From: Candidatus Methylomirabilota bacterium
GTDB lineage: Bacteria; Methylomirabilota; Methylomirabilia; Methylomirabilales; Methylomirabilaceae
Assembly: GCA_016207095.1 (NCBI GenBank)
Contig: JACQQF010000027.1
Span: 1 to 64,000 of the forward strand
Reading direction: 5' to 3'
Length of the DNA: 64,000 nucleotides
Position numbers and translations under genes: made by a program. Of the stretch, positions 5,149 through 41,238 are shown in pieces. The notes beneath the pieces are model-generated. The model saw only the letters and a list, made by a program, of their open reading frames with translations, had not been told where the DNA came from and ran no database searches. Position 1 is the stretch's first letter, and every line of letters starts with the position of its first letter.

Positions 5149-5200
5149 CTAGAAGACCATGGGGACTCTCTAACTTACTGTGATTGAAAGCCAGAACCGG

Positions 5201-5218
5201 TGGGTACTATCCGCCCCA
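5201..5218. promoter_or_regulatory. Upstream activator palindrome, distal, fdhA
   Basis: TGGGTAC-TATC-CGCCCCA, starting exactly 70 bp from the proximal site. It is weaker than the proximal copy (left arm TGGGTAC), but the spacing matches that of the pairs at the other three sigma54 promoters. Confidence 0.6.
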
Positions 5219-11971: not shown

Positions 11972-12052
11972 GGCACCCCCTCCGCTTTCGTCACCTCATT
12001 GAATACCGGTTCCTGCGTGATCCCATCTCGGCCCCCACCGCTCGATTCAAAA

Positions 12053-12622
12053 TCAGTAGAAGCAGGTCTCGGGCTGGTTGGCCGTCGAGATGTCGGCCGT
12101 GAGCAACAACAGGTCCTGTGGCGCGTTGTTCTGATCACGGGCGAAGCCCGGGAGGTGAGCCATCCGCTCGAACCCGGCCCGCTCGAACGCCCTGACGGCC
12201 GCGATCTCGCTGGCGATCAGCTCCGCGAAGAGGCGTTCGAGCTTCGAGTCGATGGCTAGAAGCATCAGGTCCTCGATCAGCAGGCTGCCCAACCCTTTGC
12301 GCCGATACTCGGGATCGACGACGATGCGGATCTCCCCCACATGCTGAAGCCACCCGAACTTCCTCCTGTGCAGGGTGGCGTCGGCTACGATCTTCCCGCC
12401 AGCCTCAGCGAGGATAGGGATGACCCGATTGTAGTCGATCTGTCGGCACCAGTTGGCGACCACGGCGCGATGCGCCACGTCCTCCTTCAAGAGCTTGCGA
12501 TCCTCTTCGGGGATCCGGCAGAAAAATTCGTGTAGGCGAGCCTCGTCGCGGGGCTCCATCGGCCAAAGGGTCACCTTGGTCCAATCCTTGAGGCTAACCT
12601 GCTTCGGATAGATCCTGAGCAT
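12053..12622 (-). CDS. GNAT-family N-acetyltransferase (paralogue 2)
   Basis: 189 aa. Same layout as its paralogues: LWPMEPRDEARLHEFFCRIPEEDRKLLKEDV at the N-terminus, then IVVDPEYRRKGLGSLLIEDL as the acetyl-CoA loop, and a C-terminal half with the ASEIAAVRAFERAGFER strand-helix. The start is well supported by AAAGGAGGGCGGAC before ATG. It sits 81 bp upstream of paralogue 1 in the same direction and just after the broken UspA gene, so it is probably in one stress transcription unit. No substrate can be assigned. Confidence 0.88.
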   Translation of the reverse strand: MLRIYPKQVSLKDWTKVTLWPMEPRDEARLHEFFCRIPEEDRKLLKEDVAHRAVVANWCRQIDYNRVIPILAEAGGKIVADATLHRRKFGWLQHVGEIRIVVDPEYRRKGLGSLLIEDLMLLAIDSKLERLFAELIASEIAAVRAFERAGFERMAHLPGFARDQNNAPQDLLLLTADISTANQPETCFY

Positions 12623-12719
12623 GTCCGCCCTCCTTTCACGATGCTATAACACCAATCTCACAAAAGCCATCATCGACTCCCACCCAAGACGCGCACCAGA
12701 AGAATCCCCCACTCAACCC

Positions 12720-13198
12720 TCACCTCGCGGCCCTCCTCATCCTGGGCGGTCTGACGACGAGGACCGGGCAGTGGGCCAGCCGGACTACGCGCTCGGCCAC
12801 GCTCCCCAACATGAGATGAAACATCCCGGTCGTCCCGTGGGTCGAGATCACAATGAGATCGACGTGCATCCGAGAGGCGATCCGCACGATCTCTTGATAC
12901 GGGGAACCGGCCCCCAAGGCCGTCCGAATCTTCACCCCCGCCAGCGGCTTCGAACGGGTCTCCCGCTCCAGATCCGCCCTGGCCCGTTCCTCCTGAAGCT
13001 TCAGCGTTTGCTGCCAGTCAGGGGAAGGATGAGGGGATACGAATCTCCATTGGGGCCGCCCAGGGTCGCCTGAGGGACGACATGGAGCAGCACCAGCTCC
13101 GCTCCGGAGGCCCTGGCCACCGTCGCTGCTCGGCGGACCGCGTACCGGGAGTGTCTCGAAAAATCAGTCGGGCACAAAATCCGCTTGGCTCTGTGCAT
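12720..13198 (-). pseudogene. Universal stress protein UspA, frameshifted
   Basis: Two ORFs together make one UspA protein. The first (start MHRAKRILCPTDFS, reading LVLLHVVPQ) runs to a stop after PLTGSKR. The second frame carries PDWQQTLKLQEERARADLE, then KIRTALGAGSPYQEIV, DLIVISTHGTTGMFH and GSVAERVVRLAHCPVLVVR, which contains the ATP-binding G-x2-G-x9-GS motif. The frames join with a one-base loss in the cytosine-rich stretch near 13010-13030 (minus-strand ATCCTTCCCCTG). Without the shift it would be about 158 aa and similar to the intact UspA at 22.5 kb. It is either a recent pseudogene or a sequencing error in a C-run. Confidence 0.85.
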
Positions 13199-13253
13199 GG
13201 CACCTCCTTGTTCCGGCCCAGATTGCGAGCATCGCTACAGGCATCGCCCCGTG

Positions 13254-13640
13254 TCATCGCCTCCGCCGTCCGGCGCTGTCCTCTGGAAAATACTGCGCGA
13301 GGGCCAGTTCTATCAGCCTTGACGGCGTGACGCTGCGCTGGGCAGCCTGACTCCGAAGCCGCACGAGCAGGGAGCGCGGAAGGTGGATGGTCAGGGCTGC
13401 TTGTAGGTTCTGCGAGCCGAGATCCACCCGCGCCTCTTCCGCACGCACCCTTGCTTCAAGGGAGGCCAGGACAAGATCCTCCGCGTCGCGCGGCATCTCG
13501 CCCTCTGTCCTACGCACGCCAGTCGCCTCCTTCGACCCTTCGATGAACTCAGGGCTCGCGATGAACACCCGGCGCGTCGAAGGGTCTGAGCGAGTTAATC
13601 TCGCCCGTCGCGCTTGCGATGATGCGGCTTTTCGCTTCAT
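13254..13640 (-). CDS. Small ribbon-helix-helix-like protein with a repeat-encoded insert
   Basis: 128 aa. The C-terminal 45 residues (LTIHLPRSLLVRLRSQAAQRSVTPSRLIELALAQYF) fit an Arc/CopG-type ribbon-helix-helix or similar DNA-binding fold; the preceding part is helical and charged. Residues about 19-40 (STRRVFIASPEFIEGSKEA) are the translation of the TTCGA...CTCAGG palindrome, so the repeat appears to have been inserted in frame. The start ATG overlaps the P-type ATPase stop (ATGA) and has AGGAGGGGACCAC upstream, favouring this long start; a second ATG at residue 49, after the insert, is an alternative. Function is not known; a regulator of the upstream ATPase is possible. Confidence 0.65.
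   Translation of the reverse strand: MKRKAASSQARRARLTRSDPSTRRVFIASPEFIEGSKEATGVRRTEGEMPRDAEDLVLASLEARVRAEEARVDLGSQNLQAALTIHLPRSLLVRLRSQAAQRSVTPSRLIELALAQYFPEDSAGRRRR
13529..13583. repeat. TTCGA/CTCAGG palindromic repeat inside a coding region
   Basis: Contains CCTTCGACCCTTCGATGAA, CTCAGGGCTCGCGATGAAC and GCGTCGAAGG, arranged as an imperfect palindrome. The same family is found around 5290-5390, 47490-47580 and 51600-51740. Here it lies within the ribbon-helix-helix-like gene and keeps its frame. Confidence 0.75.
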
Positions 13641-16393
13641 GTGGTCCCCTCCTGATAGCGAAGGTTTCTACCCATGTCATGGCGGCGACCCAACCCCTTT
13701 CTTGCTTCTTCGGCGAGCAGAAGCAGGGCCGCGAAGACAAGAAGAGGCCACCAGAACCTTCCGTCGAAGGGGGCGGTCGTGAAGATCCGGTGCCCGACCG
13801 GGTGGTAGACGATCAGCCCGAGCAAACCGAGCTCCACCGCCACGCCCCAGAGGAGAAGGCGGTTGGTGAAGAGGCTCCAGGAAAAGCTCGAGGCTCGCGG
13901 GCTGCGGCAGGCAAAGACATTCGCCACCTGGCAAAGGACGATGGCGGCGAAACAGACTGTCGTCGCCTGCCTGTAGAGCGGGCTCCCCGAGGGAAGGCGC
14001 ATCCCCCATTGCCATCCGCCATCGGCCAGGTACCAGAGCCCCGCTCCCACGGCCGCAGCCGCCTCGATAGGACCCAGGAAAAGGTACGACCGGGCCAGCA
14101 GCGGGAGGTTGAGGAGCCGCTCCTCCTTCGACCTTGGCGGGCGATCCATAGTTCGAGCATCCGGCGGCTCTGCCCCGAGCCCCAGGGCGGGAAGCATATC
14201 GGTGCCCAGGTCAACGCCGAGGATCTGGACCACCGTGAGGAGCAGAGGGATCCGAAAGACCACCGAGGCCAGGTACGGCACCAGCTCCGGGATGTTGCTG
14301 GCGAGGATGTAGGTCACGAACTTGCGGATATTTTCATAGACCGCGCGCCCCTCCTCGACCGCGTTGACGATCGTGGCGAAATTATCATCGAGCACGACGA
14401 TGTCCGCCGCCTCCTTCGCCACATCGGTGCCGGCGATCCCCATCGCGATACCGATGTCGGCTTTCTTCAAGGCCGGAGCGTCGTTCACCCCATCACCGGT
14501 GACCGCCACGACGTTTCCCATCTCCTTGAGGATGGAAACGACCCGCATCTTCTGCGTAGGGGTCATCCGGGCAAAGAGGATCTCCGGAATGTCAAGTGCA
14601 GCCTTCAGTTCCTCGTCCCGGATCGCCTCAACCCTGAATCCTTCCAGAACCGCAGCGTTCTCCCCCCGGACCATCCCGATGGCCCGGGCGATGGCCAGGG
14701 CCGTGCGGCTGTTGTCGCCGGTGATCATGATCGTCTTGATCCCGGCCTTCCTGCACCGCGCCACCGCCTCGGGAACCTCAGGCCGCGGCGGATCGATCAT
14801 GGCAACCAGACCGACAAAGGTCAGATCCCGCTCCACCTCCTCCATCGCCATCAAGGGCGTACCGTCTGGCAGCTCTCGATAGGCCAGAGCCAATACCCGA
14901 TAGGCCGCCCCGGCGAATCTATCCAGGCGGTCGAGGATCTTGGTGCGCTCCGCCTCCTCCAGAGCGGTTGCCTTTCCATCGCGATGGACGAAGCGACAGA
15001 GCGGAAGCAACACCTCTGGCGCGCCCTTCACGTAGGCGACCCCCTTTCCGGACGCCGTCAGGTGGACCGTGGTCATTCGCTTTCGGTCGGCATCGAAGGA
15101 GAGCTCCTGAATCCGGGGAGACCGATCGTCCTTGTGTGGCAGCACATTGCCCGCGAACTGCAGGAGGGCGATCTCTGTCGGGTCGCCAACGAATGTTGGA
15201 TCTGTCCCGTCTCGGTTGTCGTGGCGTCTGGCGTTGTTACACCCGCTCGCGATAGCGAAGAGTGGGGCCCACCGGGCAAGGAGGTCCGGAGGCACCGGCG
15301 CGCCATCCGTATTGCGGAGGGACCCTCCCGATACCTCAACCTCGCGTCCATCGATATACACTCGGGTTACGGCCACCTTGTTCTCTGTGAGGGTCCCGGT
15401 CTTATCCGTGCAGATCACGGTGGCACACCCCAACGTCTCCACTGAGGGAAGGTTCTTAATCAGAGCCTTCCGCTTCGCCATCCGCTGAGCGCCCACAGCC
15501 AGAGAAAGGGTCACCGTCGGGAGGAGCCCCTCCGGCACGTTGGCCACTAGGATTCCTACCGCAAAGATAAAGTTTTCCCAGAAGTTTCTCCCGATCGCCA
15601 TGCCGAGGCCGAAAAACGCGAGGCCGATTCCGATGGAGAGCGCGGCGATCAGTCGAGTGACCCTGACGATCTCACGCTGAAGGGGACTCATTTGGGTCTC
15701 GACCCCGGAGGCCAGGTGGGCGACCTTGCCGAACTCGGTATTCATCCCTGTCGCGAATATCACCGCCCTCGCCGTCCCCGAAAGGACGTTTGTGCCGGCG
15801 AACACGATGTTCGCGCTCTCCAGGAGCGCCCCATCCTTGGCGGCCTCGGTCCGGCGCGCCTTGGGGATCGACTCGCCCGTGAGCGGCGCGTTGTTGACCC
15901 GGACCTGGGCTGCGCCAATGACCCTCCCATCGGCAGGGACCCGATCGCCCTCTGCAAGGATCACGACATCTCCCGGGACTAGGTTGGACGCCGAGGCCTC
16001 CCGTATCTCCCCCGATCGGAGGACCTTCACGTGAAGAGGGAGGAGGCGCCGCAGGGCAATGATCGCCCGCTCCGCCCTGTACTCTTGGACAAAAGAAAAA
16101 AGCGCATTCACCACGATCACCCCTATGATGGCCCAGCCGAGCAGATCCATTCCCTCCCCCGGCTTCATCCAATCCGCGGCGAACGCCAAGGCCGCCGCAG
16201 CCCACAGCAGAATAGCCAGGAAATGGGTGAACTGCCTTCCCAACATAGCGAGATAGCGGATCTGTTCCGCGGCCTGAAGCTCGTTGGCGCCGAATTCACC
16301 GAGCCTCCTGGCCGCCTCGGCGTCGGTCAACCCCTGGTCCGAGGTGCCAAGCGCCTTCAGCGCCTCTTCGGGCGACAGGCGATGAATCTGCAT
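13637..16393 (-). CDS. Cation-transporting P-type ATPase (type II)
   Basis: About 918 aa membrane pump that uses ATP to move cations. N-terminal cation-ATPase domain (SPEEALKALGTSDQGLTDAEA), actuator with TGES (APLTGESIPKA), phosphorylation site CTDKTGTLTEN, hinge MTGDGVNDAPALKKADIG and C-terminal membrane helices are all present. The M4 motif is VPEGLLPTVTLSL, with PEGLL as in Na,K-ATPase-like type IIC pumps; calcium pumps have PEGLP. Cation specificity remains uncertain. I prefer the ATG giving MQIHRLS, with GGGGGAG just before it, over the one four codons upstream. The stop overlaps the start of the next gene by 4 bp. Confidence 0.92.
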   Translation of the reverse strand: MQIHRLSPEEALKALGTSDQGLTDAEAARRLGEFGANELQAAEQIRYLAMLGRQFTHFLAILLWAAAALAFAADWMKPGEGMDLLGWAIIGVIVVNALFSFVQEYRAERAIIALRRLLPLHVKVLRSGEIREASASNLVPGDVVILAEGDRVPADGRVIGAAQVRVNNAPLTGESIPKARRTEAAKDGALLESANIVFAGTNVLSGTARAVIFATGMNTEFGKVAHLASGVETQMSPLQREIVRVTRLIAALSIGIGLAFFGLGMAIGRNFWENFIFAVGILVANVPEGLLPTVTLSLAVGAQRMAKRKALIKNLPSVETLGCATVICTDKTGTLTENKVAVTRVYIDGREVEVSGGSLRNTDGAPVPPDLLARWAPLFAIASGCNNARRHDNRDGTDPTFVGDPTEIALLQFAGNVLPHKDDRSPRIQELSFDADRKRMTTVHLTASGKGVAYVKGAPEVLLPLCRFVHRDGKATALEEAERTKILDRLDRFAGAAYRVLALAYRELPDGTPLMAMEEVERDLTFVGLVAMIDPPRPEVPEAVARCRKAGIKTIMITGDNSRTALAIARAIGMVRGENAAVLEGFRVEAIRDEELKAALDIPEILFARMTPTQKMRVVSILKEMGNVVAVTGDGVNDAPALKKADIGIAMGIAGTDVAKEAADIVVLDDNFATIVNAVEEGRAVYENIRKFVTYILASNIPELVPYLASVVFRIPLLLTVVQILGVDLGTDMLPALGLGAEPPDARTMDRPPRSKEERLLNLPLLARSYLFLGPIEAAAAVGAGLWYLADGGWQWGMRLPSGSPLYRQATTVCFAAIVLCQVANVFACRSPRASSFSWSLFTNRLLLWGVAVELGLLGLIVYHPVGHRIFTTAPFDGRFWWPLLVFAALLLLAEEARKGLGRRHDMGRNLRYQEGTT

Positions 16394-16450
16394 GGTCTCC
16401 CCCATCCCCTGCTTGGTCAGGCCGCCTCGGCACTGCCTTCAGATGCCGCT

Positions 16451-17095
16451 CTACCGGACGAATTCACTGACGACCTGGGGATAGCCACGCTCCGCCAGGG
16501 CGCTGACCACGCCGTCCGGATTGATGGTCCGAAGTCTCATAATCAGCAGGCGCCTTGCCCCCCCTCGAGCCGGCAGGGTCACCAGGCTGGCGATCTCCGC
16601 CTGCTGACCCTCGAGGGTCCGGATGACATCGGTGAGGACCCCAGGGTTTGCGGGGACCTCGATTTCAAGTCGCGACGCAGTCCTGGTCGCGCCCATCATC
16701 TCGGCCAGCACGCCAAGGACATCGGTCTCGGTGATGATCCCGACCAGCCTGCCCTCCTGGACGACCGGCAGAGCGCCGATTCGCTTCTCGAACATCAGAG
16801 CGGCCGCCTCCTCGATGGGACAGTGGGGGGAGGTTGTCACCACCTCCTTCGACATGACCTCCTTGACGGTCACCGCAGAGGTGAACCGGACGAATTCCTG
16901 CGCGGTATCGCGATCGAATGGGGATGGCGCAGCCTTCTTGAGGTCTCGGTCCGAGACGATGCCAACCACCCTGTCTCCCTCGACCACCGGGAGATGCCGA
17001 ACCTTCCAGGTCTCCATGGTCCTCAGTGCATGGTGCAGCGTATCGGACCGGCTGACACTGACCGGCGATCGTCGCATTCGATCCATCACTCGCAT
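16451..17095 (-). CDS. CBS-pair protein with C-terminal ACT domain (AcuB-like)
   Basis: 214 aa. Two CBS motifs (residues about 5-60 and 80-135, each ending in GIVSDRDLKK / GIITETDVL) form a nucleotide-binding Bateman module. They are followed by an ACT-like domain (SRLEIEVPANPGVLTDVIRTL to the end), as in AcuB-type proteins. CBS pairs bind adenylates or SAM and usually sense energy state. Start chosen at MRVMDRM, preceded by GAGAGGGACGCGACG; the tracked ORF adds 19 unsupported codons. It lies between the methionine adenosyltransferase gene and the P-type ATPase on the same strand; a regulatory role for either is a guess. Confidence 0.88.
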   Translation of the reverse strand: MRVMDRMRRSPVSVSRSDTLHHALRTMETWKVRHLPVVEGDRVVGIVSDRDLKKAAPSPFDRDTAQEFVRFTSAVTVKEVMSKEVVTTSPHCPIEEAAALMFEKRIGALPVVQEGRLVGIITETDVLGVLAEMMGATRTASRLEIEVPANPGVLTDVIRTLEGQQAEIASLVTLPARGGARRLLIMRLRTINPDGVVSALAERGYPQVVSEFVR

Positions 17096-17117
17096 CGTCG
17101 CGTCCCTCTCTTTCTCC

Positions 17118-18322
17118 TCAACAGACCGGATACCGCCCCTCAGTAAGCTCAACGCAGAAGTCCGACACGCGCGCCAGCTCCTGGCCGATCACCAGCCGGG
17201 TCTCTCGGCCGATCTTCTCGAACTCCGCCTCCGAAGCGGGAATCAGTTGCGCTGCCACCCAGGGTTGATCGATCGGTCGCCCGATCTGACCGACAAGCCA
17301 GACGTAGATCTCGCGCACCCCCGCTACTCGTTGGTAGATCTGCTCCGCCATCCGGTGCGACAGTACATTATAGATTTTGCCTATGTGGCTGACCGGGTTC
17401 TTCCCGGCGGCCGCCTCCCCGCTGACGGGCCGGTTGAGCGGGATCAACCCGTTCACCCGGTTGCCCCTCCCCACCTGCCCGGAATCGGCATCCTCCGCGG
17501 ATGTCCCAAGAAGCGAGAGATATACCCCACCAAGCCCTCGGCCCGGCCGGTCGAGACCGTTCAGGGTGAGGTGAATGTCGTCGAGGCTTGACGAAGGCGG
17601 CAGGGCCAGACGCAGCGCCTCCACGACCTCCTCCTTCTTCCGGAAATAGGCCGCCTCTGACGCGATAGCCGGGCACAGGAGCGGCATGGCGACCGTCAGG
17701 TTGAGTCCGCGATCCGCGCGCACCCCCATGACCTTCACATCCTCCCCCGTTTCGGGGAACGCCGCCTTGAAGGCAGGAGAGTTGAGATATCGCTCCACCC
17801 AAAGGACCATTTGCTCGGTCTCGCTCAGGGGGGCGTAGCCGACCGCCGCCGACGTATCATTGGCCTCATGGACCTCAGACCCCCGCTGGAAGATGGCCGT
17901 GAGCTCCTCGGATCCCTCCGAGAGGACGATCCGGTAACGAACGTGCGCTCTGCGTCCATATGGCGAAGATGCTTCCGAAGCCATTCCCTGGCCGTCTCGG
18001 CGGCGATCTCTCTGATCGGTATCCTGATCTTTCCCACGCGGAAGCTGGCCCGGTCGCCCACGATCAGCTCCATCGGCCGGAGCACCCGGCCCCCGCCGAA
18101 CCGCCTCCGCACCCGCCCGGCCACCAGGAGCCCTTTGTCGATGTTGTTATGAAGGATCCGGCCGAACCGCCGGTGATACTCGCCGTTGATTGCCTTCGAG
18201 ATCTCCTCCATGACCGCGTCGCAGATCGAGTCGGGATGCCCCAAACCCTTCCGTTCCACGATCTCCACCCGCTGCTCGCCGATGGGCGGGCGCTCCAACC
18301 GTTCCAGCACGACCTCATCCAT
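17118..18322 (-). pseudogene. mat: Archaeal-type methionine adenosyltransferase, frameshifted
   Basis: Makes S-adenosylmethionine from ATP and methionine. The N-terminal ORF contains EIVERKGLGHPDSICDAVME and LHNNIDKGLLVAGRVRRRFGGG; the C-terminal ORF carries ANDTSAAVGYAPLSETE, DVKVMGVR, GTSAEDADSGQVGRGNRVNG and GKNPVSHIGKIYN. Together they cover the roughly 400 aa family typical of archaea and unlike bacterial MetK. The two frames cross at about 17960: HMDAERTF continues as VRYRIVLSEGSEEL only after stepping back one base. As read, the gene cannot make a full protein. Either the organism has another MetK or this is a sequence error. The initiation region has no strong ribosome site. Confidence 0.88.
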
Positions 18323-18334
18323 CGAAGTCCCCCG

Positions 18335-18856
18335 TCAGCGCTCCCATTGCACCCGCAGGAACTTGTCGTTGTGCGACCATCCGTAGGTCACCCTCCCCCC
18401 GCAGGCCTTGCGAAGCTCCCGCCCTATCCGCTGCGCCAGCTTTTCATCCGTCGTGGTGATGTCGAGCTGTCCGCTCTTCTGGCTGAGGCTCATGATCCTC
18501 TGCAGGGGATTCGTCCCCCTGGCCCGCTGCTCTTCGTTCTTGATGATCCGCAGGATCTCCTCCCGATGCTCAGCCAGGAATGGTCCCTTCAGGGTCACCT
18601 GCCCGCTCGGGTAGCCGTCGCGAATCTTTTCACACGCAGGGCAGAACACCTGCCTCGCCGTCCCCGCCTGCACGTGCTTGGCATAGGCCGCCTCGTCCAG
18701 GCGCCATCGCTTGCCTGTCGAGAGGGCGTGGCATCCGGGACAAATCACCATCTTGCCCGGCGCACCTTTCGGCAGGTAGGAATCGGTTTGGGTGTCCACC
18801 TTCTTCTTGAACGATCCCGGGTTGTAGCGCTTCCGTCTTATGATGGGTGTCTTCAT
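18335..18856 (-). CDS. BCAM0308-family zinc-motif protein
   Basis: 173 aa. Two Cys pairs, CPGCH near residue 39 and CPACEKIRDGYPSG near 72, look like a treble-clef or rubredoxin-like zinc site. After these come LKGPFLAEHREEILRIIKNEE and a basic C-terminal domain (ITTTDEKLAQRIGRELRKACGG). I recognise this layout as the BCAM0308 family, named after a gene of the Burkholderia low-oxygen-activated island; its function is unknown, and the NMD3-like zinc motif suggests RNA or ribosome contact. It is 12 bp upstream of the MAT gene, hence probably cotranscribed. The family call is from memory of the sequence pattern. Confidence 0.75.
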   Translation of the reverse strand: MKTPIIRRKRYNPGSFKKKVDTQTDSYLPKGAPGKMVICPGCHALSTGKRWRLDEAAYAKHVQAGTARQVFCPACEKIRDGYPSGQVTLKGPFLAEHREEILRIIKNEEQRARGTNPLQRIMSLSQKSGQLDITTTDEKLAQRIGRELRKACGGRVTYGWSHNDKFLRVQWER

Positions 18857-18924
18857 TCTTCAACCTTCCGGAGGGAGGCTCCCTCCTCCCCCCCGGTATG
18901 TAGCGTTCCCTCAGGGACCACGCC

Positions 18925-19488
18925 TCAAAATGAGATTGGTTCCGGCTCCTCCTCGAGATCGCGGATCAGGATCACCAGGTCCTGAGGCCGGCCCGCTCGG
19001 TCCTTGACGTGACGGTACAGGACGGCCGCCCGCTCGAAGCCAAGATGACGGAAGGCAGCCAGTGCGGCCTGTTGACCGCCGGTCAGCTCCACGACCAACC
19101 GTTCCAGCTTGAGGCCCTTGCCGATCTCGAGCAGCTCCTTGACCAGCAAGCTGCCAAGCCCTTTCTGCCGATACCGCGAATCGATCACCAGCCGCACCTT
19201 TCCCAAGTGGCGGGTCCAGCCCAACCTCCGCCGATGCAGCGTCGCGTCCCCGACCACCCGCCCATCGACCAGTGCCAGGAGCGGCAAGACCCGTTCGTAG
19301 TCCAGCTCGTCCACCCAAGACTGAATGGTCGCCGGTTTCGAGACATCATCCCTCAGGAAGAGGCGGTCTTCCTTCGGGACCCTTTGGAAGAACTCGTAGA
19401 GGGCATGCTGGTCCTTTTTCACCATCAGCCTCAGCGACACCTGAGTGCCATCGCGGAGTTTCGCGCGCTTGGGGTACCGTTTGATCAT
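18925..19488 (-). CDS. GNAT-family N-acetyltransferase (paralogue 3)
   Basis: 187 aa. Same N-terminal signature (LRLMVKKDQHALYEFFQRVPKEDRLFLRDDV) and acetyl-CoA loop (VRLVIDSRYRQKGLGSLLVKELL) as the three other copies in this window. Start is set at MIKRYPKRAKL because GAGGAGGGTCGTT lies just upstream; the tracked ORF begins 24 codons earlier inside the preceding gene. It follows paralogue 4 by 31 bp, so the two are an adjacent pair and probably cotranscribed with the UspA-led operon above. Substrate unknown. Confidence 0.87.
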   Translation of the reverse strand: MIKRYPKRAKLRDGTQVSLRLMVKKDQHALYEFFQRVPKEDRLFLRDDVSKPATIQSWVDELDYERVLPLLALVDGRVVGDATLHRRRLGWTRHLGKVRLVIDSRYRQKGLGSLLVKELLEIGKGLKLERLVVELTGGQQAALAAFRHLGFERAAVLYRHVKDRAGRPQDLVILIRDLEEEPEPISF

Positions 19489-19519
19489 AACGACCCTCCT
19501 CGTCAATCTTCCATCAGCA

Positions 19520-20104
19520 TTAGAAGTAGTACCAGTCAGGGAGAAGCGCGGTGGACACATCCAAGACCATCACGACCAAGTCCTGATACCTGCCGCCCTG
19601 GTCCTTCACGATCCCCGGCAGGACCGCCACCTGCTCAAAGTTAAACCGCCGAAACGCCCGGATCGCCGCCGTCTCCTCCGCGACTATTTCGGCGACCAGC
19701 TTTTCCAGCCCCGCGTCGGCCGCGATAAGGATCAACTCTTCCAGCATGTGGCTCCCGAGGCCCTTGCGCCGGTAGGCCGGATCGATGACAAGTCGCACCT
19801 CGCCCACGTGCTTCAGCCAGCCGCTGCTCCGGCGATGCAGGGTCGCGTCCCCGACAATCTTCCCGTTGACTTCGGCCAGCAGGGGAAGCACCCGCCCGTA
19901 GTTGATATCCTTGAGCCAGGAATCGATCACCTCTCGCTTCGACACGTCGTGCTTCAGGAACTTTCGATCCTCCTCCTGGATTCGCGCGAAGAATTCATGA
20001 AGCCCCTCCCGGTCGTTGTGGGTCATCGTCTTCAATACCACCTTGGTCCCGTCCTTGAGCACAGTGGTCTTTGGGTACTGATCCTCGATTCGCTTCTCGC
20101 TCAT
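19520..20104 (-). CDS. GNAT-family N-acetyltransferase (paralogue 4)
   Basis: 194 aa. Layout MTHNDREGLHEFFARIQEEDRKFLKHDV, then VRLVIDPAYRRKGLGSHMLEELI, then ETAAIRAFRRFNFEQVAVLPG. The C-terminal segment DVSTALLPDWYYF is close to the end of paralogue 2 (DISTANQPETCFY), so these two may be closest relatives. The GGAGGGAAC before the ATG supports the start. It lies 19 bp downstream of a short CBS-ACT gene. The function is inferred only from the fold. Confidence 0.87.
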   Translation of the reverse strand: MSEKRIEDQYPKTTVLKDGTKVVLKTMTHNDREGLHEFFARIQEEDRKFLKHDVSKREVIDSWLKDINYGRVLPLLAEVNGKIVGDATLHRRSSGWLKHVGEVRLVIDPAYRRKGLGSHMLEELILIAADAGLEKLVAEIVAEETAAIRAFRRFNFEQVAVLPGIVKDQGGRYQDLVVMVLDVSTALLPDWYYF

Positions 20105-20123
20105 GTTCCCTCCTTGTTCGCAG

Positions 20124-20546
20124 CTACACGGCGGCGGAGAGGACGGGGTATCCGGCCTTCTCGATCGCCTTCACGGTCTCTTCAGGGTCATCGGTCTCAA
20201 TCCTAACGATCAGGACCTTGCGTTCCTCTCCTCTGTACGTTGCCCCGGCGGTCATAATGCTCGCAATGTCACCCGCCCGCTCCCTCACGATATCGCCTAT
20301 GGCGTACAGAGCGGCTGGGGTATCCTCCACCACAATCTCCACCCGCGAGACCGAGAGGTTCGTGGCAGGTGACGGCGAGACGCGCTTCAGATCGCGATCG
20401 GTCAGGATCCCCACCAGCCTTCCGCCCCTCACGACCGGGAGGTGCCGGATCTTGTGCTGGCGCAACAGCCGCGAGGCCTCCAGAATGCCGGTCTCCGGGC
20501 TGATCGTAATCGGATCGCGCTTCATCCGGTTCTCTACTAACATCAT
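20124..20546 (-). CDS. Shortened CBS-ACT protein (one CBS motif)
   Basis: 140 aa. One CBS motif (residues 5-55, IRHLPVVRGGRLVGILTDRDLKRVSPSP) leads directly into an ACT-like domain (VSRVEIVVEDTPAALYAIGDIV). Compared with the 214 aa CBS-ACT protein at 16.4 kb, the second CBS motif is missing and the join is clean, as if deleted in frame. A single CBS cannot make a Bateman pair alone, so it would need to dimerise. Good AAGGAG before ATG; the start overlaps the stop of the upstream gene (ATGATG). Confidence 0.82.
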   Translation of the reverse strand: MMLVENRMKRDPITISPETGILEASRLLRQHKIRHLPVVRGGRLVGILTDRDLKRVSPSPATNLSVSRVEIVVEDTPAALYAIGDIVRERAGDIASIMTAGATYRGEERKVLIVRIETDDPEETVKAIEKAGYPVLSAAV

Positions 20547-20818
20547 GCCTCTCCTTCTTCCAGATCTCGCTCGGCCGCCTGCCGCTCACAATGTCTCAGG
20601 TACAGCTCGCAACAGGCATGCTCGGCCGTCGTACATAGCTCGCGAAACTCCTCGACGGTTACGACCCTCAGTCCCCCCTTACGTGAGGCCAAGCAGTAAC
20701 CCTCGATCGTATACCGGGGAATCTGCTTGGCCCGCTGTAGATACGGGCACGACGGACTTTGCCTGTCCACCCCGCCCTCGACAGACGGCGCCTCCGGGTT
20801 CCAGAGTGTTTTCATCAC
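20543..20818 (-). CDS. Small cysteine-rich protein of unknown function
   Basis: 91 aa. Six cysteines: SCPYL, GYCLA, LCTTAEHACCELYLRHC. The clustered C-terminal cysteines could bind zinc or iron-sulfur, or form a redox site. I do not recognise the family. It overlaps its neighbours on both sides by 4 bp (the CysC-like gene upstream and CBS-ACT gene downstream), so it is translationally coupled in the stress operon. It has no signal peptide and no membrane segment, so it is probably cytosolic. Confidence 0.6.
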   Translation of the reverse strand: MMKTLWNPEAPSVEGGVDRQSPSCPYLQRAKQIPRYTIEGYCLASRKGGLRVVTVEEFRELCTTAEHACCELYLRHCERQAAERDLEEGEA

Positions 20819-21426
20819 CTTTCCTTCCCAGGCCGATAGCCTCGCCGATCCACGCCCAGAGATATTTCCACCTGCCCACTCGGAAATACTCCAAGAAACC
20901 TCACCAGCCGTTCCACGGCCTCCGCGACAGTAAGTTGCTCGGTATCAAGCACGAGCTCGGGATGGAGGGGCGGCTCGTACGTCTCATCGACGCCCGGGAC
21001 GGTCGATCCTTCCCGACCCGCCTGCCCGTAGACATCCTGTGGGGCGAAGCTCCCGCGCCGGTCCCTCGCCCGCTCCCGGCACTTGGCCAACGAGGCGCGC
21101 AGGTGGATCTCCGCGAAATGGGGGATCATGGCGCGGGCCAAGTCACGGAATCGCCGCCTGTGGCCGGTCGCATCGATGATCACCCTGACGCCCTCCTCAT
21201 AGAGCAGCAATGCCATATAGGCCAGGGCGCGGTACACCACCTCGCGTTCCTCCGAGGTATAGCGCGGCGAGGGCGTCACAACCCTCCGTATCTCGTCGAG
21301 CTCCAACACCCGCACCCTGACGCCGATCGCCATCAGGCGAGCAGCGGCCTCACGTGCCACGCTGCTCTTGCCGCTACCCGGAAGTCCTGTGAGCCAGGCG
21401 ACCCATACCATGACGACATCATTCAT
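20815..21426 (-). CDS. Adenylylsulfate-kinase-like P-loop kinase (CysC family)
   Basis: 203 aa. Walker A is GLPGSGKSS at residues 13-21; the region GRVRVLELDEIRR resembles the APS-kinase D-G-D-x-x-R block with a changed ending. VIIDATGHRRRFRDLARAMI and VPGVDETYEPPLHPELVLDT fit the CysC family. There are no sulfate-assimilation genes beside it; instead it is coupled by 4 bp to an APH-fold kinase. Some CysC paralogues phosphorylate other small molecules, so APS as substrate is unproven. Confidence 0.78.
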   Translation of the reverse strand: MNDVVMVWVAWLTGLPGSGKSSVAREAAARLMAIGVRVRVLELDEIRRVVTPSPRYTSEEREVVYRALAYMALLLYEEGVRVIIDATGHRRRFRDLARAMIPHFAEIHLRASLAKCRERARDRRGSFAPQDVYGQAGREGSTVPGVDETYEPPLHPELVLDTEQLTVAEAVERLVRFLGVFPSGQVEISLGVDRRGYRPGKER

Positions 21427-22535
21427 GCCAGATAGCGATTGAGATCCCTGTAGTCAAACTGCTCGACTCGGAGCATCGCCTGCACGAATCGAAAGAGCTT
21501 CAGCCGCACCTCTTCCGAGAGGTTGGGATACCAAACCGGGCTGGCAATGACCAGGGCGCGGAAGACATAAAACGGGGGGATCACCTGGTTCAGCTCCTGA
21601 TCCTGGGTCCGATCAAGGTAGTCGCCGTAGAATCGATCGTACAGCTCCGTGAACGGCGCCTCCATTTTGCCGCGCCGCAGCAGCGAGAAGAAGATATAGT
21701 TGATGCTGAGGGCCGCGACATCATCGGCCGGCTCCCCCCATTCTCCCCGGCTCCTATCGAGCAACGTGAAGTCGGTCCCCTCCCGGAAGAGGATGTTCCA
21801 GGGGTGAAAGTCGCCGTGGACGATGCTGAGGCGCTTCACCTTCTCCTTCAGGTGATGCCGCCAGGCGAGACAGCCGGCCTCGACGACGTACTGTTGCTTG
21901 GCCGGGAGCAACGGGTAATCTGCCGGGTAGCCATCCAGGATCCCCATGATCCCTTCTCCGTGGCCGAGCAGATCGCGAGTCCGTCGGAAGTAGAGCTGCA
22001 CGTCGTGACCTTTCCGCGCATGGATCTTCGCCAGATAGGCCGACAGCGCGCCGGTCCGATCGAGGTCCAGAGATGTCGTCGTTCCCTTGCGGCGGATCCG
22101 TTGAAGATCCGCGCAGTACGACGCGCCCTCCACCTTTTCCATCAGGAGGAAGAACTCCTCGGCGCCCCCGGCCGATCGCAACTCACCCTCCCGCGTGATG
22201 AAGCCGACGTCGAGGCTCTTGACGTGGCGTGGCAGTCTCCCGTAAGCGTCATGCGCCCAAATCAGCGCCCCTGCCCGGTCGGCGAAGTGATCGTGGCCGA
22301 AGCCGGACCCGACCCGCATGGTGGAAAGGACGTAGGACCGCGGAACGCCGTCGAGGAGAAGGTCAATCTGGATCGGCCGCCCGTAGCCAAACGCCTTGGG
22401 GTCGCCGGTCCCTCGCGCCCCAGACTCCCTCGGATCGGCCGTCGGTCCATCGATCCCCAGCGGCCGAAGCGCCCGCACCTCAACGGAGCCGGCGAGGGCG
22501 GCCTCGAGGTACCAGGTCAGTGCATCGCGGCGCAT
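21423..22535 (-). CDS. Aminoglycoside phosphotransferase-fold kinase
   Basis: 370 aa from MRRDALTWYL, preceded by GAGAGGGACAACG; the tracked ORF starts 25 codons earlier inside the UspA gene. Kinase-like motifs: catalytic loop IVHGDFHPWNIL (HGD-x-H-x2-N) and metal site TLLDRSRGEWGEPADDVA, where the usual ID is LD followed by R. The N-terminal lobe (VRALRPLG ... LSTMRVGSGFGHDHF) is less standard. It may phosphorylate a small hydroxylated metabolite; antibiotic resistance is not implied. It lies between uspA and the CysC-like gene in one operon. Confidence 0.82.
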   Translation of the reverse strand: MRRDALTWYLEAALAGSVEVRALRPLGIDGPTADPRESGARGTGDPKAFGYGRPIQIDLLLDGVPRSYVLSTMRVGSGFGHDHFADRAGALIWAHDAYGRLPRHVKSLDVGFITREGELRSAGGAEEFFLLMEKVEGASYCADLQRIRRKGTTTSLDLDRTGALSAYLAKIHARKGHDVQLYFRRTRDLLGHGEGIMGILDGYPADYPLLPAKQQYVVEAGCLAWRHHLKEKVKRLSIVHGDFHPWNILFREGTDFTLLDRSRGEWGEPADDVAALSINYIFFSLLRRGKMEAPFTELYDRFYGDYLDRTQDQELNQVIPPFYVFRALVIASPVWYPNLSEEVRLKLFRFVQAMLRVEQFDYRDLNRYLA

Positions 22536-22546
22536 CGTTGTCCCTC

Positions 22547-23005
22547 TCACCTCTTCTTCTTCGGCTTGACACCCTTGCCTTGGGGTGGCTTCACGGTCAA
22601 GACCGGGCAAGGGGCGTAGCGAACCACCCGTTCCGCAACGCTGCCAAGAAAGGCATGAGCTAAGCCGGTCCGCCCGTGGGTCCCCATCACGATCAGATCG
22701 ATCTTCTCCTTCTCCGCAAGCTTCGTAATCTCCTGGTACTCCGCGCCGACCCGCACCTCGGGGTGGAAGCTCACCTGTGTCTCGGCTGTTTTTTGCATCA
22801 GCTTTTTCAGGTTCCTCTCAGCCCGCTTGACCAGCCCATCAAGGACCCGCCCGATATCGAACTCAGGCATCTGCGGGGGAAAGTAGACCACATGCAAGAG
22901 GTAGAGCTCTGATCCAAAGTCGCGTGCGAAGGCCAGCGCATACAGGAAGGCATACTCGGAATTCTCCGAAAAGTCCGTGGGAAACAGAATCCGTTTCATC
23001 TCCAT
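22547..23005 (-). CDS. Universal stress protein UspA
   Basis: 152 aa single-domain Usp. KRILFPTDFSENSEYAF opens the fold; DLIVMGTHGRTGLAHAFLGSVAERVVRYAPCPVLTVKPP holds the G-x2-G-x9-G-S/T ATP-binding motif, so it is probably the nucleotide-binding type. ATG follows GGGAGGGGAGC. It leads a run of minus-strand genes (APH-like, CysC-like, Cys-rich, CBS-ACT, two GNATs) with very short gaps. The upstream region has a sigma54-like core and two palindromes at the same spacing as at three other operons here. Confidence 0.93.
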   Translation of the reverse strand: MEMKRILFPTDFSENSEYAFLYALAFARDFGSELYLLHVVYFPPQMPEFDIGRVLDGLVKRAERNLKKLMQKTAETQVSFHPEVRVGAEYQEITKLAEKEKIDLIVMGTHGRTGLAHAFLGSVAERVVRYAPCPVLTVKPPQGKGVKPKKKR

Positions 23006-23140
23006 GCTCCCCTCCCATTCTCGCCCCAGTAGATGCTACCAGTGGACCTCGACAAGCAGGCCTCTGACGCAGTGGGCGTTCACGAAATCATTCTTGCCTC
23101 TCGGAGTTCTGCACACAGTGCGTTTTCATAATCAGTGTAG

Positions 23141-23156
23141 AGCAAGATCAATACCA
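23141..23156 (-). promoter_or_regulatory. Sigma54-like promoter for the uspA operon
   Basis: Reads TGGTATTGATCTTGCT on the minus strand. GG and GC are 10 nt apart and TTGC is perfect; the -24 box is TGGTA instead of TGGCA, so it is the weakest of the four cores. Its reality is supported mostly by the two palindromes at the conserved distance. The leader would be about 125 nt. Confidence 0.6.
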
Positions 23157-23267
23157 GATCAACCTACATCGCCCAAGAATCTCACGCCAAGAACCTATTG
23201 ATTCTAAAGGACATATCCCCGTCTATTTCAGCTGGTTCAGGATGCGGCCGTTCGAACGCAAGGTAGG

Positions 23268-23285
23268 TGGGGCGTCGATGCCACA
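23268..23285. promoter_or_regulatory. Upstream activator palindrome, proximal, uspA
   Basis: TGGGGCG-TCGA-TGCCACA, 12 of 14 arm positions match TGGGGCA/TGCCCCA. Its near edge is 112 bp upstream of the sigma54-like core. Confidence 0.65.
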
Positions 23286-23337
23286 CCTGCAATAGGAAAG
23301 AACTCTTAATTGCTTGAAATTGGGGATTTGACACCGA

Positions 23338-23354
23338 TGGAGCAGCATGCCCCA
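23338..23354. promoter_or_regulatory. Upstream activator palindrome, distal, uspA
   Basis: TGGAGCA-GCA-TGCCCCA (three-base spacer), 13 of 14 arm positions. It starts exactly 70 bp from the proximal site. The rest of the 23006-23488 gap holds no convincing gene. Confidence 0.65.
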
Positions 23355-23488
23355 TACCGCGAAACAATGTCTCGATTTATTTCACGGGTGGGAGGGGTGA
23401 TCCTGCACGGCATTTTGAGTTTCAGGATTCGCTGTCGTGACACGAGCGTCACCTCGGGGATGATGGGGGATGGAGGCGGCCTTCTCGA

Positions 23489-24589
23489 TTACAGGGAGCG
23501 CTCCGAGCCGGCCGGAGGCTCTGGGGCGTAGGCGCAGAGCGGATCACTTCCCATGGGGTCGCCCGTCGCGGCGAAAGCGCGGGCCCGTGATCCCCCACAA
23601 ATTCCGTGGAACTCGCAGCGGCCGCACTTGCCGGTGTACCCCTCCACGGCCCTGAGACGGGTGAACAGATCGGAGTGGCGGTAGATCGCCACCGGCGTCT
23701 GTTGGCGCACGTTCCCGGCCGAGACAGGCAGGAACCCGGAGGGATAGACATCCCCGGTGTGCGAAATGAACATGATGCCGTTTCCGTCTCGGATGCCGAA
23801 GCCTCTCCCGATGGCGGTGCGCCGGATGGCGGCCTCGTCAAACCCTTCCGCCCGCATTCGAACGGACGCCACGCGGCGAAAGTGAGGGGCCTCCGTCGCC
23901 TTGATGGCGAACGGGGCAGTCTTGGAGAGGTCGTACAGCCAGTGGTGGAGCACCTCGCACTGGCTGGGCCGGATCTCCCGAAGATCTCGGCCACGCCCCG
24001 TGCCGATCAGATAGAAGAGACTCCACCGCATGATCCCCAGACCCAGGAGGAGCCCGTAGACTTCCGGCAGGCCCGCCACTGTCTCGGCGGTAACCAGGGT
24101 GTTGATCTGAAGAGGAATCCTCGCTTCCCTGATGTAACCTTCCGCCTGCATGGTGGACATGAAGCAGCCCTCCACCCCGCGGAACCGATCGTGGATCTCG
24201 GCCGTAGCACCGTCGATGCTGAGAGACATGCTCTGGACCCCGCTCGCTTTTAAGGAACGGACCGCATCCTCGGTGAGCAACCGGGTTCCGCTGGGAGCGA
24301 CCGAGACCGGGATCCCCAGGCCCACCCCATGCCCCACGAGCTCGAAGAAATCCGGTCGCTTCAGCGGGTCACCCCCTGTCATCACCAGTTGCGGGGGCGG
24401 GTTGCCGAACGCCCGGATCTCTTTGAGGAGGGCCTTCGCTTCACCTGTGCTCAGTTCCCGCGGGTCTCTTCGCTCGATCGCTTCGGCCCGGCAGTGCTTG
24501 CAGGCAAGATCGCAGGCCCGCGTGAGCTCCCAGTAGACAAGCCGGGGAGCATCGGAGAAGACGAGCCTGTCAGGTCCGACTGCATCCAT
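23489..24589 (-). CDS. Radical SAM/SPASM protein (AhbD/NirJ-like)
   Basis: About 366 aa. CDLACKHCRAEA near residue 25 is the radical-SAM CxxxCxxC cluster; MTGGDPLKRPDF is the GGE-like motif. The C-terminal part has SHTGDVYPSGFLPVSAGNVR and CGRCEFHGICGGSRARA, a SPASM-type auxiliary cluster with a last Cys in DPLCAY. The layout is like TIGR04053-type and heme-modifying (AhbD, NirJ) proteins; a role in heme d1 or peptide modification cannot be decided. The ATG giving MDAVGPD has GGAA upstream; the tracked start four codons earlier is TTG. No partner peptide gene is visible nearby. Confidence 0.85.
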   Translation of the reverse strand: MDAVGPDRLVFSDAPRLVYWELTRACDLACKHCRAEAIERRDPRELSTGEAKALLKEIRAFGNPPPQLVMTGGDPLKRPDFFELVGHGVGLGIPVSVAPSGTRLLTEDAVRSLKASGVQSMSLSIDGATAEIHDRFRGVEGCFMSTMQAEGYIREARIPLQINTLVTAETVAGLPEVYGLLLGLGIMRWSLFYLIGTGRGRDLREIRPSQCEVLHHWLYDLSKTAPFAIKATEAPHFRRVASVRMRAEGFDEAAIRRTAIGRGFGIRDGNGIMFISHTGDVYPSGFLPVSAGNVRQQTPVAIYRHSDLFTRLRAVEGYTGKCGRCEFHGICGGSRARAFAATGDPMGSDPLCAYAPEPPAGSERSL

Positions 24590-24639
24590 GTCAGATTCCA
24601 ATGTAGGTTGTATGGAGAATCAGCGAATTCGCCACTTCG

Positions 24640-25119
24640 TTAAGGCGAGCCGCTCACTCTGAATCCGCTCATGGCGTCGGAAAGCCAGCACTTGCCGACC
24701 TCCTGCGCCTCTTCTCGCCCAGCCTCGAGCGAGGCTCGCAGCACGTCTCCCTCAGTGAGAATGCCAACCAGACGTTCCCCATCCACGACCGGCAGCCCCC
24801 CGATCTTGTGGGCCAAGAGGAGCGCGGCCGCAGCCTCAATCGAGCTCTCCGGCGTCACGCTGATCACTTTTCTGGTCATCACGGCCTGAACCTGCAATGT
24901 ATCGAACAGGCAGGAGAGCTCGTCTGCCTCAAGGCTTCCGGCATGCGCGGGAAGGGCGCGACGGATGTCCCGATCGGTGATGATCCCGACCAGTTTTCCA
25001 TCGCTCACCACCGGGAGATGCCGGACTCTCTTCTTGTCGAGGATGTGCTTGGCCAGGCTCACCCCCTCTTTGGGGCTGATAGTGATGACGTCTCTGCTCA
25101 TTCTATCTTCAACCTTCAC
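24640..25119 (-). CDS. CBS-pair domain protein
   Basis: 159 aa consisting of two CBS motifs (VRHLPVVSDGKLVGIITDRDIRRALP and IGGLPVVDGERLVGILTEGDVLRASLE) with no other domain. I start at GTG (VKVEDRMSRDV), because GGGAGGAGCAGCC is just upstream and nine codons in the tracked ORF are unsupported. Its first 34 residues closely match the N-terminus of the HD-GYP gene at 25.3 kb, showing duplication. It lies 50 bp upstream of the radical SAM gene. Confidence 0.88.
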   Translation of the reverse strand: MKVEDRMSRDVITISPKEGVSLAKHILDKKRVRHLPVVSDGKLVGIITDRDIRRALPAHAGSLEADELSCLFDTLQVQAVMTRKVISVTPESSIEAAAALLLAHKIGGLPVVDGERLVGILTEGDVLRASLEAGREEAQEVGKCWLSDAMSGFRVSGSP

Positions 25120-28253: not shown

Positions 28254-28323
28254 GGCAACCTCCTTGATAACGAAGGGATGCGAATCCCGATCTGACTAAT
28301 GGTCGTCCCCTCGTCAGCGAGAG

Positions 28324-28338
28324 GCAATTGAGATGCCA
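28324..28338 (-). promoter_or_regulatory. Sigma54 promoter for the multicopper oxidase
   Basis: Minus strand TGGCATCTCAATTGC, with GG and GC 10 nt apart and perfect TGGCA and TTGC boxes. The likely start is near 28312, giving a leader of about 60 nt. Confidence 0.8.
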
Positions 28339-28459
28339 AGGGAGCTGGTTTGGAGCCGAAGGCAAGGAAAAACCGAAAGGGAGCGTGAGTTTTTAGATAG
28401 ATAGCGAGAAGGTAAGCTTATCCCGAAGGACTGTCGAAGCGATAAGAGCCCCTTCTAGC

Positions 28460-28477
28460 TGAGGCAGGCATTCCGCA
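28460..28477. promoter_or_regulatory. Upstream activator palindrome, proximal, multicopper oxidase
   Basis: TGAGGCA-GGCA-TTCCGCA, 11 of 14 arm positions match the consensus. Its near edge is 122 bp from the sigma54 core. It is the weakest proximal site, but lies at the predicted place. Confidence 0.5.
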
Positions 28478-28529
28478 ATGACTGACAGAGAAATCCCAAG
28501 AACATAATGATAATGGCATCTTATGCTGA

Positions 28530-28547
28530 TGGGGCAGCCGCTCCCCT
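28530..28547. promoter_or_regulatory. Upstream activator palindrome, distal, multicopper oxidase
   Basis: TGGGGCA-GCCG-CTCCCCT, 12 of 14 arm positions. It starts exactly 70 bp from the proximal site. The rest of the 28254-28590 gap holds no gene. Confidence 0.6.
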
Positions 28548-37338: not shown

Positions 37339-37354
37339 AGCAATAGGGATGCCA
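37339..37354 (-). promoter_or_regulatory. Sigma54 promoter for the receiver/PFOR operon
   Basis: Minus-strand TGGCATCCCTATTGCT, with perfect TGGCA and TTGC boxes and GG/GC spacing of 10 nt. Transcription would begin near 37328, about 23 nt before the receiver ATG. Confidence 0.8.
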
Positions 37355-37471
37355 ACACTCGAGGAAGCCACCCGACCCGGAATTCAGGCTCTAACTCTTT
37401 GAATCCATTAGCGTCTGCTGAGAACCCGATGCCTGCCAGTCGCCAGATAGCTCGGCGCCTCTCTTCGGGGT

Positions 37472-37488
37472 TGGGAAGAGCTGCCCCA
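37472..37488. promoter_or_regulatory. Upstream activator palindrome, proximal, PFOR operon
   Basis: TGGGAAG-AGC-TGCCCCA; its near edge is 118 bp upstream of the sigma54 core. The right arm is a perfect TGCCCCA. Confidence 0.65.
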
Positions 37489-37539
37489 CTTTGGAGAGAG
37501 GGAATGTGATAACCGATTGAAAACTAAAGAAAGGGATTT

Positions 37540-37557
37540 TGGGACAGCCATGCCCCA
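37540..37557. promoter_or_regulatory. Upstream activator palindrome, distal, PFOR operon
   Basis: TGGGACA-GCCA-TGCCCCA, 13 of 14 arm positions. It starts 68 bp from the proximal site. Between 37558 and 37826 I see no gene. Confidence 0.7.
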
Positions 37558-37826: not shown

Positions 37827-37925
37827 CTAGTGCCGTTCCAACTATTTGGGTAACAGAACATCTCTTGGCGATTAGCCGAAACGAGTTAGAACGGCATTAG
37901 CCGAAACGAGTTGGAACGGCACTAG
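37827..37925. repeat. MITE-like element (copy C) with internal tandem duplication
   Basis: 99 bp unit from CTAGTGCCGTTCCAACT to AGTTGGAACGGCACTAG. A 25 bp block (ATTAGCCGAAACGAGTTrGAACGGC) is repeated in tandem at 37871-37895 and 37896-37920, giving two right ends. The right CTAG supplies the TAG stop of the sigma54 activator gene, as in copy B. No ORF inside. Confidence 0.75.
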
Positions 37926-39304
37926 GAAGCCCTAATGCCGTACTTCTTTAGAAGGCGATGGATCGTCTTGCGGTCCACGCCGGCAGACTTTGCAGCCTGC
38001 GAGATATTCCCGTCGTGACGCTTCAGGAGCTGAACCAGGTACTCTCGCTCAAAAGAGGCCGCCCACTCCTCTTTCGCCCGCTTCAGCGGCAGATCCCTGG
38101 GCGAGATAGGTGAGACAGTCCCCATCCTTGTGTGGATATGCTCCGGCAGGTCTTCCGGGCGCAATAACTCATGCTCGGTCAGCACAACCGCCCGCTCGAT
38201 GACATTCTGCAGCTCACGGACATTTCCGGGCCAGTGGTACTCCCCGAGCAACTGCATCGCCTCCGGAACGATCCCCTTGACCTCCTTCCCACTGCTGGCC
38301 ACGTACTTCTCGATGTAGTGGTGAGCGATCAATGGGATATCCCCCTTGCGGTCGCGCAAGGGCGGGAGCGGGATGGAGATCACATTCAGCCGATAGTAGA
38401 GGTCCTCCCGAAACTCGCCCTTTGCGACTGCTTGCGCCAGGTCGCGGTTCGTGGCGGAGATGACCCGCACGTCCACCTCGATGGTCCGGTTCGACCCGAC
38501 CCGCCGCACCTCCCGTTCCTGGAGGACGCGAAGGAGCTTGGCCTGAAGATTCATGCCGACATCGCCTACCTCGTCCAGGAAGATGGTCCCGCCGCTCGCG
38601 AATTCGAACAGGCCAGGGCGCGTAGCCTGCGCTCCTGTGAAGGCACCTTTCTCATGACCAAATAGCTCGCTCTCAAGTAGATTTTCGGGAAGAGAGGCGC
38701 AATCGACCGGGATAAAGGGCTTCGATGCCCTGCGGCTGTTGACGTGGAGGCTCCGCGCGATCAGCTCCTTTCCGGTCCCGGTCTCGCCAACGATCAGAAT
38801 GTTGGCCTCACTCTTGGCGACCTTCTTGATCGTCTCGAAGACCTGAAGCATCGGCAAACTCCTGCCGATGATCTTATCGAACCGGTAGGTTTCGGTGAGC
38901 TGCTCCAGGAGTCGTCGGTTCTCTTCCCGAAGCCGACGTTGCTCCAGCGCCCGTTCAATGCAGACCCTGAGCTGGTCGCCAGAGAATGGCTTGGGCAGGT
39001 AATCGAACGCGCCCTCCTTCACGGCCTCCACAGCGGTCTCGATGGTGGCGAACGCGGTAATCAGGATGACCGTGGCCGAGGGATCAATGGCGCGGATAGC
39101 CCGCAAGACCCCCAGCCCGTCGAGGCCCGGCATCCGTAGGTCGGTGAGCACCAAGTCGGGCCTCTCTCGCTCGAACATCGTGGGGGCCTTGGTGCTGTCA
39201 GCCTCCGTCACCACCAGGTAGCCAAGGTGTGACAGCAATCGAGCGCAGCTCTCCAACATGTCCAGTTCATCATCGATCACGAGGACCCGGGCCGACTTTG
39301 GCAT
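37922..39304 (-). CDS. Sigma54-dependent response regulator (NtrC/AtoC type)
   Basis: 460 aa enhancer-binding protein. REC domain ([12 protein letters not shown], phospho-Asp in [17 protein letters not shown]), central AAA+ domain with Walker [12 protein letters not shown], the sigma54-contacting GAFTGA in [10 protein letters not shown], Walker [10 protein letters not shown] and an arginine-finger region, then a Fis-type helix-turn-helix ([25 protein letters not shown]). It is 19 bp downstream of a histidine kinase, so they form a two-component pair. Its stop codon lies in a repeat element. It is the obvious candidate to bind the paired palindromes found upstream of four operons in this window. 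Confidence 0.95.
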
Positions 39305-41045: not shown

Positions 41046-41238
41046 CTTCACCAACCCGTTTTCACAATCGGCGCTATCAAGCATGGGCACTGTCGGTGTG
41101 ACCAAAGGTCTGGCCTAGGCTGCAAGAGCTCCAACGGTCTCAAAAGATTACCTAGGACGGTTGGACGCATAACGGCGAATGATGCCAACCCCATCGTCAA
41201 GACGTGACATGTTTCCGTGAACGGATACAGATAAAGAT

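Follow-up and report, generated by a model that had tools for sequence, protein, structure and literature searches.

A probable enhancer-dependent sigma-54 promoter upstream of the uspA gene cluster in a Candidatus Methylomirabilota (NC10) genome

The region 23141-23354 is very probably an enhancer-driven sigma-54 promoter of the uspA gene cluster, acting with IHF under the response regulator encoded at 37922-39304; protein binding and the dependence on RpoN are predicted from the DNA. The source was the genome bin of an uncultured methane-oxidising Candidatus Methylomirabilota (NC10) bacterium, 2.90 Mb in 103 contigs, and the window, that is the whole 64-kb stretch of DNA analysed, lies on contig C100. 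The features are summarized in Table 1. In the proposed mechanism the promoter would transcribe leftward into uspA and then into the kinase, CBS-ACT and GNAT genes. The phosphorylated regulator would bind both palindromes as oligomers, and a bend made by IHF at 23191-23203 would bring the bound activator into contact with RNA polymerase-sigma-54 at -24/-12, to drive ATP-dependent open-complex formation. At least seven other promoters in the genome may be under the same module.

Table 1. Features of the uspA promoter, its gene cluster, the sister promoters in the window and the candidate regulatory pair
Feature	Position	Strand	Details
Sigma-54 core (-24/-12), TGGTAT-N5-TTGCT, TGGTATTGATCTTGCT	23156-23141	-	exact TGGYAY-N5-TTGCW match
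IHF-like site, AATCAATAGGTTC	23191-23203	-	8/9 positions of WATCAANNNNTTR; 34 bp upstream of core
UAS1, promoter-proximal palindrome TGTGGC-N6-GCCCCA, TGTGGCATCGACGCCCCA	23268-23285		111 bp upstream of core
UAS2, distal palindrome, 17-bp variant TGGGGC-N5-GCTCCA, TGGGGCATGCTGCTCCA	23338-23354		181 bp upstream of core
uspA, universal stress protein, first gene of unit	22547-23005	-	Pfam Usp 2.9e-37
APH-like kinase, overlaps uspA	21423-22610	-	Pfam APH 6.1e-9
APS-kinase (CysC)-like P-loop kinase, overlaps APH gene	20815-21426	-	Pfam APS_kinase 2.2e-23
Small Cys-rich ORF, 91 aa, closing the apparent kinase/CBS-ACT gap	20543-20818	-	reading frame
CBS-ACT protein	20124-20546	-	Pfam CBS 7.8e-16
Two overlapping GNAT acetyltransferases (19520-20104 and 18925-19560)	18925-20104	-	Pfam Acetyltransf_1
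Probable distal part: NMD3-like, S-adenosylmethionine synthetase (two frames), CBS pair, P-type ATPase	13637-18856	-	spacing
Sister promoter upstream of REC gene	37339-37557	-	core 37339-37354, UAS1 37471-37488, UAS2 37540-37557
Sister promoter upstream of multicopper oxidase gene	28323-28547	-	core 28323-28338, UAS1 28460-28477, UAS2 28530-28547
Sister promoter upstream of formate dehydrogenase alpha gene (NCBIfam name)	5001-5218	-	core 5001-5016, UAS1 5131-5148, UAS2 5201-5218
NtrC-type response regulator, REC-AAA+-HTH_8, probable activator	37922-39304	-	Pfam; palindrome linkage elsewhere
Partner membrane PAS histidine kinase	39324-41105	-	Pfam HisKA/HATPase/PAS; hydrophobic N-terminal part

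The core promoter had been labelled weak and doubtful in an earlier sequence-only reading. This label was too harsh, since the core has 0 mismatches to TGGYAY-N5-TTGCW and the strict pattern gave 22 matches genome-wide (2.9 Mb), compared to 8 when the control pattern, its reverse, was used. The core also keeps the GG-N10-GC spacing, and the predicted start near 23130 would give a leader of about 125 nt. The genome carries one rpoN gene (PF04552, E 1.6e-59). A scan of 12000-24700 gave no sigma-70-like match on the minus strand, and an Rfam scan of 22500-24000 gave no match. The possibility that the DNA upstream of uspA is a copy of another promoter of the same genome was rejected, as only chance-level matches of 15-23 bp were obtained.

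The palindromes were scored against the code TGGGGC-N6-GCCCCA, which was derived from the other promoters of the window. UAS1 agreed at 11 of the 12 positions, and UAS2 likewise at 11/12 when read as a 17-bp variant whose half-sites are 5 bp apart and not 6. With a scoring matrix built on 14 sites from promoters other than that of uspA, the five top-ranking sites of the window were all promoter-linked and UAS1 took rank 2 among all 64-kb positions; UAS2 ranked 193 as an 18-mer and 2 among the 17-bp variants. At random genomic positions, a score of at least 11 in the right interval occurred with a frequency of 0.0007 for UAS1 and 0.0005 for UAS2, and both together at 18 of 400,000 positions, true sites being part of this background. 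Dinucleotide shuffling of the upstream DNA, repeated 20,000 times, gave such a UAS1 0 times and such a UAS2 once. The common phase of about 70 bp that had been proposed for the two palindromes holds as regards spacing (69.5 bp centre to centre, compared to 70, 70 and 69 bp at the other window promoters); the distal site itself has the 17-bp and not the 18-bp form. UAS2 is judged a real but atypical site, one base short of the usual length.

The IHF-like site, overlooked in the earlier reading, lies between the core and the enhancers. Its 34-bp offset is also found at the promoters C63_4139 and C65_27498. Three HU/IHF proteins are encoded in the genome, one most like IHF-alpha and another most like IHF-beta, with best NCBIfam matches of 101 and 105 bits against cut-offs of 111 and 115. 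Classical sigma-54 promoters of the NtrC/NifA type have a -24/-12 core, palindromic enhancers 100-220 bp upstream and an IHF site between the two. The uspA promoter has the same layout and differs in the pair spacing near 70 bp and in its own palindrome sequence.

The offsets of core, UAS1, UAS2 and IHF site were measured at ten candidate promoters of the genome. The values for UAS1, UAS2 and IHF were 111, 181 and 34 bp at uspA and 112, 181 and 34 bp at C63_4139, while C65_27498 showed UAS1 at 112 and IHF at 34 bp and no good second site. Paired sites were 68-70 bp apart in most candidates and 65 bp apart in C35. The combined pattern of core and palindrome gave 7 matches in this genome and 0 control matches. 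A common architecture is convincingly indicated for at least eight promoters, that of uspA included (8/10 candidates). C19_59567 was not counted (UAS1 9/12, UAS2 7/12, and an 878-aa open frame beginning inside the core), nor was C65_31352, with UAS1 at only 7/12. Beyond the genes named in Table 1, the promoter at 37339 is followed after the REC gene by YncE-like, CBS and 2-oxoacid:ferredoxin oxidoreductase genes. The target of the C63 promoter is an ADP-forming acyl-CoA synthetase, that of C103 an Fe-S plus NrfD membrane oxidoreductase and that of C35 a CBS plus pyridine nucleotide oxidoreductase; the C65 targets are small unknown proteins.

The decisive evidence for the predicted uspA promoter is considered to be a gap-free footprint in a second sequence. 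A search with the uspA upstream DNA of the window matched a 3.4-kb contig with the order CBS-rSAM-ORF-uspA (G003:C12, L252), and the alignment was gap-free from UAS2 to the core. Identity was 83-88% at the regulatory sites (UAS2 15/17, UAS1 15/18, IHF region 15/17) and 27-41% in the UAS1-IHF spacer (21/57), the IHF-core spacer (15/37) and the leader (34/126); the UAS2-UAS1 spacer gave 34/52 and the core 11/16. UAS2 has the 17-bp spacing there as well. TGGTAT and TGC of the core are retained at the same offset, the -12 box GTGC carrying one mismatch. Bin G003 holds two rSAM-uspA loci, C12 with sigma-54 sites and C167 (L139) without them. Since the latter is an ordinary uspA-APH locus, C12 is either a paralogue or a mis-binned contig, and may be a piece of another species; the sequence is independent in either case. 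The CBS protein encoded on C12 resembles that of G002 most closely.

The core and palindromes were found upstream of the uspA-APH locus in 0 of the 11 other genus genomes read, so the control of uspA appears to be lineage-restricted. The sister genome G002 stood outside this comparison, its uspA upstream region being on none of the contigs found. The rSAM-uspA intergenic regions of L135-L145, where the sigma-54 sites are absent, share a block conserved in front of uspA, CAGATGCTCTAGCCGATTGG..., which is probably another promoter or regulator site. The different block in other members of the genus, together with the poor score of UAS2 as an 18-mer, would suit the view that a chance sigma-54-like string stands beside unrelated palindromes and that another promoter type drives uspA, as apparently in the other genus genomes. 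This is very improbable in the face of the gap-free footprint in a second genome, the low site frequencies and the lack of a minus-strand sigma-70-like match in the interval scanned. The earlier argument that the site geometry rescues a doubtful core was borne out for the sigma-54 promoter by the leave-out matrix, by this footprint and by four further genomic promoters, which have paired sites or the same UAS1 and IHF offsets as the uspA promoter.

The regulator at 37922-39304 is the likely activator of the palindromes, which it is predicted to bind. The regulator and kinase genes lie upstream of the REC promoter, and close orthologues of the regulator are present in Candidatus Methylomirabilota, NC10. 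The uspA promoter shows the core and a pair about 70 bp apart as at the regulator-linked promoters, the 17-bp spacing of UAS2 being the departure. The palindrome was scored within 1.5 kb of each regulator orthologue against twelve control palindromes. At nine distant NC10 and Rokubacteria loci, with 55-70% identity to the regulator, it reached 10-12/12, compared to control maxima of 8-10; in loci from f3, f4 and Rokubacteria, a sigma-54 core with palindrome comes directly after the orthologue of the activator. A core was absent from the range at two loci of 54-55% identity and at three of the four closest orthologues. Regulator and REC gene are not neighbours in the genus genomes, and therefore no promoter is expected beside the regulator. 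Seven other genomes of the genus (L228-L234) carry the module of the REC promoter in front of their REC orthologue, with a core, activator sites at about 114 and 184 bp and an IHF-like site that mostly stands at about 36 bp; in L227 (G004) the REC orthologue is present and no core passed the REC-promoter scan. In G002, a bin 81% complete, the regulator is present and no REC match was obtained.

The genome encodes about 18 sigma-54 activators (PF00158), hence the probable assignment to 37922-39304 rests on linkage and conservation. With so many candidates and a palindrome-regulator link predicted from sequence, a genuine sigma-54 promoter could have palindromes that belong to another activator. 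This is unlikely, as palindrome and core adjoin the orthologue in the nine loci of 55-70% identity, whereas among the relatives listed none below 55% identity had a palindrome above 9/12. Further, the genus genomes without a close regulator orthologue (G001, G008, G011, G012, G013) are also without the REC gene that carries the sites.

The closest described case found was NmpRSTU of Myxococcus xanthus, in which NmpR, an NtrC-like regulator, acts with sigma-54 through pairs of dyad sites that precede the core (PMC11841059). Its targets include a CBS-domain protein, a universal stress protein and a P-type ATPase operon, one target being hypoxia-induced (PMC11841059). The logic is the same and the targets are similar; site and sensor differ. 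NmpR recognises GCGCA-N5-TGCGC in pairs mostly 14-15 nt apart and is served by a heme protoglobin kinase sensor, and pair spacings of 10-15 bp are given for several NtrC-like regulators (PMC11841059). The NC10 system, in contrast, has TGGGGC-N6-GCCCCA, 69-70 bp within pairs, a membrane PAS kinase and many fermentation-type targets. Neither palindrome of the uspA promoter is a GCGCA-N5-TGCGC site, both being of TGGGGC/GCYCCA types. The best NCBIfam match of the regulator was AtoC (NF008469, 518.5 bits against a cut-off of 714) and that of the kinase AtoS (NF008468, 302 bits against 646). Both are far below the curated cut-offs, so neither protein is an AtoC or AtoS, and the targets of the NC10 regulator have no relation to acetoacetate use. 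The region was therefore assigned to a lineage-specific regulon as one of its enhancer-dependent sigma-54 promoters, as the NmpR site and sensor differ and AtoC is below cut-off.

Between uspA and the second GNAT, neighbouring genes overlap or are separated by gaps of at most about 20 bp, and gaps onward to 13637 are at most 68 bp. This packing resembles one operon, whose extent is a prediction; no terminator-like site was found on the minus strand before 13935. The earlier proposal that the same activator controls the APH-like and CysC-like kinases, CBS-ACT and the GNATs is plausible on these grounds. Only the window and G002 have CBS-ACT and the two GNATs at this place in the cluster; elsewhere among the genus stretches read, the kinase is followed by an NMD3-like or CBS gene. 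Since CBS-ACT and the GNATs are absent from that gene order, they were inserted or lost as a block. Their restricted occurrence would agree with a promoter that drives uspA and the two kinases only, CBS-ACT, the GNATs and later genes having promoters of their own. Such a shorter unit, compatible with the main promoter explanation, is rather unlikely, because no spacer separates the two parts, the 91-aa ORF filling the gap with overlapping ends, and the minus strand showed no terminator-like site before 13935. The 91-aa ORF is weakly similar (38%) to the C-terminal part of the ORF just upstream of uspA in G003:C12. The archaeal-type S-adenosylmethionine synthetase (17118-18322, minus strand) is split into two frames meeting near 17945 and is one frame in the genus genomes checked, which reflects either a frameshift in the genome or an assembly error.

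The signal of the regulon is probably energy or redox limitation, or is oxygen-related, judging from the targets and from NmpR. It is quite possible, if somewhat short of probable, that NC10 and Rokubacteria have their own sigma-54 activator with the TGGGGC-N6-GCCCCA code, in this genus with enhancer pairs near 70 bp, for a broad response to low energy or low electron acceptor, and that the uspA-kinase-acetyltransferase operon was recruited to it in this lineage. Such a response would span ferredoxin-linked 2-oxoacid oxidation, formate dehydrogenase, ADP-forming acyl-CoA synthetase, stress kinases and acetyltransferases. The uspA operon would lie inside the regulon in one lineage and apparently outside it in relatives. 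Judging from the literature searched, little seems to have been published on a sigma-54 control layer in NC10 methane oxidisers. The site code with a named activator makes a regulon of at least eight promoters checkable and offers a candidate link, for this phylum, by which energy status could be coupled to fermentation-type enzymes, acetyltransferases and stress proteins.

Further promoters of this kind were noted in other genomes. The usp genes lie downstream of such promoters also in f3 (L213, L215) and f6 (L247). In G019 of family f6 (L235, L236, L246, L247, L248) many promoters have the same architecture, including those of two REC paralogues and of CBS, usp and ADP-forming acyl-CoA synthetase genes. 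In G005 a core at L205:3325 (minus strand), near the activator pair, is preceded at 109 and 174 bp by palindromes that each score 11/12, and it points into a long ORF whose start resembles a TAT signal.
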